Program-made: the position numbers and the translations under genes | DNA from: Gemmatimonadota bacterium | GTDB taxonomy: Bacteria; Gemmatimonadota; Gemmatimonadetes; Longimicrobiales; Gaopeijiaceae | Assembly (NCBI GenBank): GCA_028873595.1 | Contig: JAPPOV010000030.1 | Span: 62,001 to 126,000 of the forward strand | Direction of reading: 5' to 3' | DNA length: 64,000 nt | Shown: positions 52,178 to 54,385 of the stretch, in pieces | Numbering within the stretch: position 1 is the stretch's first letter | How the letters are laid out: each line of letters opens with the position of its first letter | The notes under the pieces: model-generated | What the model saw: only the letters and a program-made list of their open reading frames with translations | Databases searched by the model: none | What the model was told of the DNA's origin: nothing

Positions 52178-52298
52178 TTGCGCCGCTCCGTGAACGACGG
52201 GGCAAAACATCCATCCCGCTCCGTCGGGGACCTGCGCCGCTTTCGGGGTCCTGACAACGATGGGGCCCGTAACCACTCACGGACCGAGGGAACCGAAG

Positions 52299-52952
52299 AT
52301 GCGGCTCTACGAGGTTGTGTACATTCTGGACGCCGCGCTCGACGAGAGCGCTGCGACTGCGAAGCTCGAGAAGTTTCATGAGCTCGCAACTGCGCACGGC
52401 GGAGAGGTCACCGCCGTTGACCACTGGGGCGGGCGGCAGCTCGCCTACCCCATCAACAAACAGTCCGTCGGCTATTACGTCGTCGCACAGTTCACCGCGG
52501 TGGCCGAGGCTCTGCCCGAGTTCGAGCGTCTGCTCAAGCTCGATGAGGAAGTGCTCCGCTATCTGCTCGTCATCAACGAGGGCGAGCCTACGAGCGGTGC
52601 CTCCATTCTGGCCGACGCGCCTGCGCGCGCGCCGAGCGAAGACGAGGACGACGACGAAGAAGAGGATGAAGCCATCGCTGCTGATGGCGAGGAAGAACCG
52701 CGGGATCCCACGAGCCCTCCGCCGGAGTTCAGTGGCGCCCGCGGGCGTCGCCGTCGGATGGAAGGGCCGCGTGTCGTCATCCTGAACTACAAGGACGTCG
52801 AGACGCTTTCCCACTTCATCACGGAGCAGGGAAAGATCCTTCCGAAGCGGACCACCAAGGTCACCGCTCGCTTCCAGCGTGAGCTTGGGTCGGCGGTGAA
52901 GCGTGCTCGTTTCCTGGCGCTGCTTCCGTATATGCGCCGCCAGGACGGCTGA
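52299..52952 (+). CDS. rpsF-rpsR: Fused ribosomal protein bS6-bS18
   Basis: 217 aa in one uninterrupted frame. Residues 1-95 are bS6 ([44 protein letters not shown]). Residues 96-156 are a low-complexity linker with an Asp/Glu run (residues 113-124) and an Arg cluster (148-153). Residues 157-217 are a complete bS18 core ([36 protein letters not shown]). The two proteins normally come from separate genes and form a pair on the 30S platform. An internal ATG at 52758 has no Shine-Dalgarno. The ATG at 52299 with GAGGG upstream was chosen over 52260. Followed by DUF2232 and rplI. Confidence 0.9.
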
Positions 52953-52972: not shown

Positions 52973-53911
52973 ATGACGACCGAGGCAACCGTGGCCAAGG
53001 GCGAAGGAACTGGCTGGAGACGTGCCCTGGCGCTGTTTGTGCTCCTGGTGCTGACGTCGCTGGTTCCTGCCGGAATGCTCGTGGGTGTCCCTCTTCTGAT
53101 ACTCATCGGGTTGGGCGGTATCCGGAACGCAGGGCTGTTGGTTGCGACGGTCGTGGCCATGTTCGTGGTCTTGTCTGGTCAACGTGATCCACTGTGGTAT
53201 GCGGAGCGCGGTTGGGCGGTCATGCTCGGTGGATTCTTTGCGGCCACGACGCTGCTCGCACCGCGGTGGCGGCTGACGTCCCGAGCTCTTGCGGCCGTAG
53301 GTGGATCGGTGGGCGGCGCCACTGCGTTCTATGTCATGCGCAGCGGCGCTTGGTCGAATCTGGATTGGAGCGTAAGCGACCGGTTGGGTGCGATTCTGGG
53401 CAACTTCCTTTACGCATTGGACGTCGTGCGCGAAGGTCAGACCGTGTCACCCGCATTCGTCGCGGCGGTTTACCGCACGATCGAACTGCAGGCCGCAGTC
53501 TTCCCTGCCGTCGTAGCGCTCGAGTCGATGGCAGCGCTCGGCATCGCGTGGTGGCTGTACCGTCGTCTTGTGTTCAGGGACGATGAAGGGCTGGCGTCTG
53601 TGCGTCAGTTCGCGTTCAACGACCACCTCGTCTGGGTCCTCATCGCCGGCCTTCTACTCGTCGTGACGGGTGTGAGTGACGGTGCTGTACGGGTCGGGGC
53701 GAACCTGGCAGTCTTCATGACGGCGCTGTACGCCCTGCGAGGAGCGGGTGTCGTCGTTTTCGTCAACCGGGGGCTCTCGCTCTTCGGTGCATTGATGTTC
53801 GTTCTGGGAGTCCTGTTCGCCGCGCCCCTCGTGGTCGGCTTCGCAGCGCTCCTGGGCATCGCAGATACTTGGCTCGATCTCCGCGCTCGCGCGGAGGCGA
53901 TAGCCGGATAG
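52973..53911 (+). CDS. DUF2232 (YybS-like) membrane protein
   Basis: 312 aa with about eight membrane helices. Its place between the S6/S18 gene and rplI is the classic position of YybS-type DUF2232 proteins. C-terminal blocks NDHLVWVLIAGLLLVVTG and VFVNRGLSLFGALMFVLGVL fit the family pattern. Function unknown. Confidence 0.82.
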   Translation: MTTEATVAKGEGTGWRRALALFVLLVLTSLVPAGMLVGVPLLILIGLGGIRNAGLLVATVVAMFVVLSGQRDPLWYAERGWAVMLGGFFAATTLLAPRWRLTSRALAAVGGSVGGATAFYVMRSGAWSNLDWSVSDRLGAILGNFLYALDVVREGQTVSPAFVAAVYRTIELQAAVFPAVVALESMAALGIAWWLYRRLVFRDDEGLASVRQFAFNDHLVWVLIAGLLLVVTGVSDGAVRVGANLAVFMTALYALRGAGVVVFVNRGLSLFGALMFVLGVLFAAPLVVGFAALLGIADTWLDLRARAEAIAG

Positions 53912-53929: not shown

Positions 53930-54385
53930 ATGAAGCTCATTCTCAAGCAGTCCGTCCCGAACCTCGGTGAGGTTGGTCAGGTTGTGACCGTCAAGCCCGG
54001 TTACGGACGGAACTACCTGATCCCGCACGGACTCGCGTACGTCGCGAGCGCGGAAAATCTCGCCCGAATCGAAGCCGAGCAGGCGAAGGCCAAAGAGACC
54101 GCGCGTCGGGACTTCCTCGAGGCGCGGCGCCGTGCCTCGCAGCTCGAGGGTCTCTACTTGTCATTCAGCGAGAACGCGGGCGAAGATGGTCAGCTCTTCG
54201 GCTCTGTGACCGCAGCCGACATCACGGAACAGGTCAACGCCAGCGACATCGATTTCGAACTCGACAGGAAAGCTGTTCAGCTCGAGGATGTGATCAAGAT
54301 GGTCGGCGAGACCCAGGTTCCGATCAGACTCCACGCCGACGTCACCATCGAGATCACGGTGAACGTGGAGTCAGCGGAGGGCTGA
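53930..54385 (+). CDS. rplI: 50S ribosomal protein L9
   Basis: 151 aa, normal length. N-domain KLILKQSVPNLGEVGQVVTVKPGYGRNYLIPHGLA, long connecting helix (ARIEAEQAKAKETARRDFLEARRRA), and C-domain (LFGSVTAADITEQV; PIRLHADVTIEITVNVES). It follows GGAGG with good spacing. Confidence 0.98.
   Translation: MKLILKQSVPNLGEVGQVVTVKPGYGRNYLIPHGLAYVASAENLARIEAEQAKAKETARRDFLEARRRASQLEGLYLSFSENAGEDGQLFGSVTAADITEQVNASDIDFELDRKAVQLEDVIKMVGETQVPIRLHADVTIEITVNVESAEG

Follow-up and report, generated by a model that had tools for sequence, protein, structure and literature searches.

A single open reading frame carries bS6 and bS18

The window, by which we mean the whole stretch of 64,000 nucleotides that was analyzed, contains on its forward strand, at 52299-52952, a single frame of 217 codons. 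Positions 52299-52949 encode 217 amino acids without a stop, and the calculated mass of the fused chain is 24.3 kDa. The chain is laid out as a bS6 domain (residues 4-91), a linker of about 69 residues, and a bS18 domain (residues 161-209). The bS6 domain was matched by Pfam Ribosomal_S6 (PF01250; E = 9e-28, 96.7 bits, profile positions 2-89 of 90) and by NCBIfam TIGR00166 (87.3 bits, against a cut-off of 42.9). The bS18 domain was matched by Pfam Ribosomal_S18 (PF01084; E = 8e-21, 74.3 bits, profile positions 4-52 of 52) and by NCBIfam TIGR00165 (73.7 bits, against a cut-off of 38.75; profile positions 14-69 of 70). The proposal from an earlier note on this DNA, that bS6, a linker, and bS18 share one open frame, is therefore borne out. 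Downstream, Pfam identified a DUF2232 membrane protein, bL9, and RsfS. The features of the locus are as follows.

52215..52291, + strand: 5' leader (covariation, 36 family members)
52299..52571, + strand: bS6 domain, residues 1-91, start ATG at 52299 (PF01250, TIGR00166; ATG start in 105 of 109 fused relatives)
52572..52715, + strand: end of the bS6 tail and acidic low-complexity linker, residues 92-139 (net charge -17; length varies among relatives; pN/pS 0.48 for residues 105-139)
52716..52769, + strand: conserved 18-residue linker motif, residues 140-157 (near-invariant in 106 proteins; pN/pS 0.046)
52758..52760, + strand: internal in-frame ATG (Met154), not conserved and without a Shine-Dalgarno sequence (residue counts in 109 fused relatives)
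52770..52952, + strand: bS18 core, residues 158-217, and stop codon; Cys/His metal ligands absent (PF01084, TIGR00165, alignment)
52973..53911, + strand: DUF2232 membrane protein, downstream neighbor (PF09991)
53930..54385, + strand: bL9 (rplI), downstream neighbor (PF03948, PF01281)

One part of the initial description needed adjustment. The bS18 had been called complete; its core is, but the usual N-terminus, with its Met, basic residues, and CxxC, is absent, and the linker motif is found there instead. The linker comprises an acidic stretch (48 residues) followed by an Arg-bearing motif of 18 residues.

The host genome (3.23 Mb in 52 contigs) is 94.6% complete. A profile search of it gave one S6 match and one S18 match, both at 52299-52952, so the second rpsR for which the earlier note had advised searching was not found at this completeness; the sole S18 match is the fused gene. 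In an AlphaFold model of the chain, bS6 was predicted with confidence, bS18 fairly well, and the linker as disordered; with a pTM of 0.48, the arrangement and interface of the domains are not fixed by the model. The top Foldseek matches for the model were bS6 chains of solved ribosomes.

The fusion is widespread in one family

The protein was used as a query against 395 genomes of the phylum and 121 genomes of the host's family, and the loci were then read individually. The same arrangement recurs: 109 loci in the host's family encode both proteins in one frame without a stop, including loci in single-contig genomes such as L049, one contig of 4,224,903 bases. Clearly separate rpsF and rpsR genes were found in only two genomes of the family, G404 and G405. 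In two other sampled families of the same order, the genes are separate in 29 of 29 classifiable genomes (18/18 and 11/11), and another family of the class, sampled with 8 genomes, has stops between the bS6 and bS18 genes at all readable loci. Across the rest of the phylum, a stop lies between the genes in the single matches listed outside the host's family, the split matches having been read only in part; outside the phylum, about 70 loci were checked, 68 of them from Pseudomonadota, and all have separate genes.

Several loci called for individual judgment. L094 and L101 (G381) were considered as unfused and rejected: apart from an N gap within the linker of the former and a single frameshift, probably a sequence error, in that of the latter, both genes are fused. 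L101 comes from a metagenome-assembled genome, and its sister, L110, is intact. L117 and L118, which are cut by contig ends, and L116 (G421), which is too divergent, were left out of the fused and separate counts. L255 (G159), from a family other than the host's, was rejected as an independent fusion, as there are stops between its genes and the equal open-frame lengths are misleading. No family genome with a match has more than one S18, except G337, which has two partial matches on two contigs, one of them at a contig start.

On a tree of the bS6 and bS18 cores (142 rows), which was built from few columns by a quick search, one change suffices to explain the fusion (SH-aLRT 99). The sequences from G404 and G405 (L092 and L093) group with the separate-gene sequences. 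Both genomes have been placed in the fused family, yet they have separate genes and metal ligands, and the tree groups them with another family; on these sequences, the limits of the fused family may need revision. Judged from the loci compared here, the fusion is real, old, and nearly fixed in one family, and apparently of single origin, with vertical inheritance since then. The author of the earlier note knew of no natural bS6-bS18 fusion, and we found no description of one in the open-access literature, while databases may annotate such chains automatically. The fusion is likely to have gone undescribed until now, and its linker motif is unreported.

One fused locus, L176, lies in MPMR01, a bin of the BD2-11 clade that is labeled Pseudomonadota/Gammaproteobacteria; its sequence places the bin in the Gemmatimonadota family. 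The BD2-11 group of Gemmatimonadota has a cultured marine member, Gaopeijia maritima DH-78T (PMC11651109). A finished isolate genome, from a cultured species, very probably carries the fusion, the consequences of which would then be directly testable.

The linker contains a motif under strong selection

Counted from residue 92, the linker ranges from 58 to 200 residues among fused relatives; at 58 residues or more, it should be long enough for any plausible geometry of bS6 and bS18. The longest, in L112 (G070), is rich in Ala, Gly, and Asp and not in runs of Asp and Glu. The end of the linker, by comparison, is near-invariant in 106 proteins, with the consensus [SG]PPEFSGxRGRRRRx[ED]GP, a motif absent from the aligned separate bS18 proteins. 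Over 71 related pairs, which share ancestry so that the values are descriptive, pN/pS was 0.48 for the acidic part, 0.046 for the motif, 0.07 for the bS18 core, and 0.17 for bS6. By this codon-level measure, purifying selection on the motif is at least as strong as that on bS18. Given the conservation of the motif and its low pN/pS relative to that of the acidic part, the linker is translated, and a portion of it has a specific role. PPEF is missing from three fused sisters, L089-L091, in which the Arg cluster and the DGP are retained; the PPEF half of the motif is therefore not indispensable.

Fused bS18 has lost its metal ligands

Ligands of the CxxC/CxxH type mark the zinc-binding, or C+, form of bS18 (PMC9976891). 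In the separate proteins of this order, a CxxC precedes the YKD and a CxxH follows further on; the fused bS18 has neither. The CxxC is present in 30 of 31 separate relatives versus 0 of 109 fused ones, and the Cys and His of the second site in 30 of 31 versus 0 of the 99 fused sequences with a readable pattern. The separate relatives are thus of the C+ type, while the fused form, without a CxxC near the N-terminus or a second ligand pair in the core, is ligand-free like C- forms. C- proteins described elsewhere are separate, and often second copies for zinc shortage (PMC9976891), whereas here a single bS18 is present, ligand-free and part of a fusion. Mitoribosomal proteins with the bS18 fold bind zinc or, in the case of bS18m, a [2Fe-2S] cluster that connects the protein to bS6m (PMC9731571). 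The mammalian mitoribosome resembles the present case in that bS6 and bS18 are joined beyond non-covalent contact; it differs in that the connection there runs through a metal cluster bound where bS18 has its metal site, while here it is made by a peptide and the metal site is lost. The gene fusion and the loss of the metal site map to the same branch, and their order and cause are inseparable. The linker peptide may compensate for the lost site.

One chain or two

In all likelihood, judging from the sequences, the product of the gene is one chain of about 24 kDa, a covalently tethered bS6:bS18 heterodimer. The alternative that an internal start provides some or most of the bS18, with the fusion only apparent, would draw on the ATG at 52758, where Met is found in 33 of the 109 fused relatives. 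The remainder have His (32), Val (22), Ile (18), or other residues (4), so this ATG, which indeed lacks a Shine-Dalgarno sequence as the earlier note had remarked, is also not conserved. In the separate relatives, bS18 starts about one codon past the bS6 stop, and the start has a Shine-Dalgarno match of at least 4 bases in 30 of 31. A start-type codon with a 4-base match near bS18 occurs in 16 of 107 fused genes, matches that may be chance. Against such starts, the 25 residues preceding the bS18 core are free of ATG, GTG, and TTG codons in 44 of 107 fused genes, the single-contig genome L049 has no start-type codon across residues 92-155, and the motif upstream of bS18 is under protein-level selection. 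Because starts are rare or absent near the fused bS18 and Met154 is not conserved, internal initiation is very unlikely as the family's general mode of making bS18, and the alternative as a whole is very improbable.

An assembly or sequencing error that deleted a stop between adjacent rpsF and rpsR genes, which the earlier note had named as a possible refutation, has a negligible chance of being correct. The host genome is in 52 contigs, and the frameshift of L101 and the N gap of L094 fall at the same place; however, 109 family loci agree on the stop-free frame, single-contig genomes among them, and codon-level selection on the linker motif is strong. It is improbable, too, that the chain is a precursor, made whole and then cut, most likely beside RGRRRR, into a bS6 with an acidic tail and a bS18. 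The motif would then be a cleavage site; it is short, very conserved, and immediately before bS18, and a stretch like RGRRRR could be cut. Proteases trim the ends of ribosomal proteins in other bacteria, as Prp does with bL27 in Firmicutes. Yet the residue after RRRR varies (Met, His, Val, or Ile), the conserved stretch of about 18 residues extends on both sides of it and exceeds what a cut site needs, and L089-L091 are without PPEF. The family-wide open frame, the single-copy bS18, the non-conserved internal Met, the codon selection on the motif, and the single-contig genome agree with the original reading of the gene as a true fusion.

In the separate relatives L092, L093, L119-L136, and L149-L159, Glu codons of the acidic tail (GAGGAGG) double as the rpsR Shine-Dalgarno sequence, so that the bS6 tail in these relatives has both a coding and a regulatory role.

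A structured leader precedes the gene

Upstream of the gene lies a leader of the form CCCGCUCCG...CGGGGCCCGU...ACGGwCCnnGGGA. Among 36 family members, it can form two hairpins (52218-52226/52258-52266 and 52267-52270/52279-52282 in the window) within a short outer helix (52215-52217/52288-52290). Pairing and covariation exceeded those of all 500 shuffles and all slid controls, the support from covariation coming from one helix while the other two hardly vary. An invariant CC (52284-52285), followed by G or A, stands between hairpin and outer helix, and a Shine-Dalgarno-like GAGGG (52286-52290) lies inside the outer helix. A search of Rfam for models of the leader gave chance matches only.

In the known bS6:bS18 operator, a structured RNA ahead of rpsF, a bulge between stem and hairpin holds a conserved CCG (PMC10931766). 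By analogy, the invariant CC resembles the conserved cytosines of that operator (PMC4647458; PMC10931766), which makes the leader a candidate bS6:bS18 operator for Gemmatimonadota, to which the fusion protein would bind. Since the separate genes of G404 and G405 have this pattern upstream as well, the leader is probably older than the fusion.

A proposed model: a tethered heterodimer

In E. coli, the bS6:bS18 heterodimer assembles before rRNA is bound, and the two proteins jointly repress rpsF (PMC4647458). Compared with the separate rpsF and rpsR genes of E. coli and B. subtilis, whose products form a heterodimer on the 30S platform (PMC4647458), the locus described here has both folds, the gene order, the downstream bL9, and a structured leader in common; it differs in encoding one chain, with no start of its own for bS18 and with the linker motif replacing the bS18 N-terminus.

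We propose that the ancestor had rpsF and rpsR about one codon apart, with Glu codons of the acidic bS6 tail serving as the rpsR Shine-Dalgarno sequence. Loss of the stop would have joined the genes and turned the acidic tail into a flexible linker, and the metal-binding N-terminus of bS18 would have given way to PPEFSGxRGRRRRx[ED]GP. This motif probably docks on rRNA or the platform, holding bS18 without metal. Once folded, the two domains would pair with each other in the same chain and associate with the 30S central domain that carries uS15; the pairing step would change from bimolecular to intramolecular, and supply would plausibly be fixed at 1:1, as the earlier note had suggested. Excess protein would bind its own leader, the outer helix covering the Shine-Dalgarno sequence, and translation would be repressed. 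The family would thus offer a natural experiment in 30S assembly, with bS6:bS18 pairing intramolecular and the ratio set by the gene, in which the metal site of bS18 is lost and a conserved linker motif gained along with the fusion, and in which a single protein is left that may regulate its own message.

With the fusion, bS6 also loses its free C-terminus, the site of extension by RimK in other bacteria (PMC7343187, PMC10931766). The RimK-extended protein and the fused chain both have an acidic stretch after the bS6 fold; here, by contrast, the stretch is internal, no bS6 C-terminus is free, and RimK was not found by profile search of the host genome (94.6% complete), in which the sole match to the RimK profile was rejected as a D-alanine--D-alanine ligase. 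With the bS6 C-terminus buried in the linker, RimK would have no end to extend.

In Bacteroidia, bS21, bS18, and bS6 contact the anti-Shine-Dalgarno region (PMC9976891). We suggest, tentatively, that the 30S platform of this lineage uses a covalent bS6-bS18, in which the new motif takes over the place and task of the metal-binding N-terminus of bS18, possibly contacting the 3' region of 16S rRNA near bS21 and so affecting initiation. A bS21 is present in the host genome.
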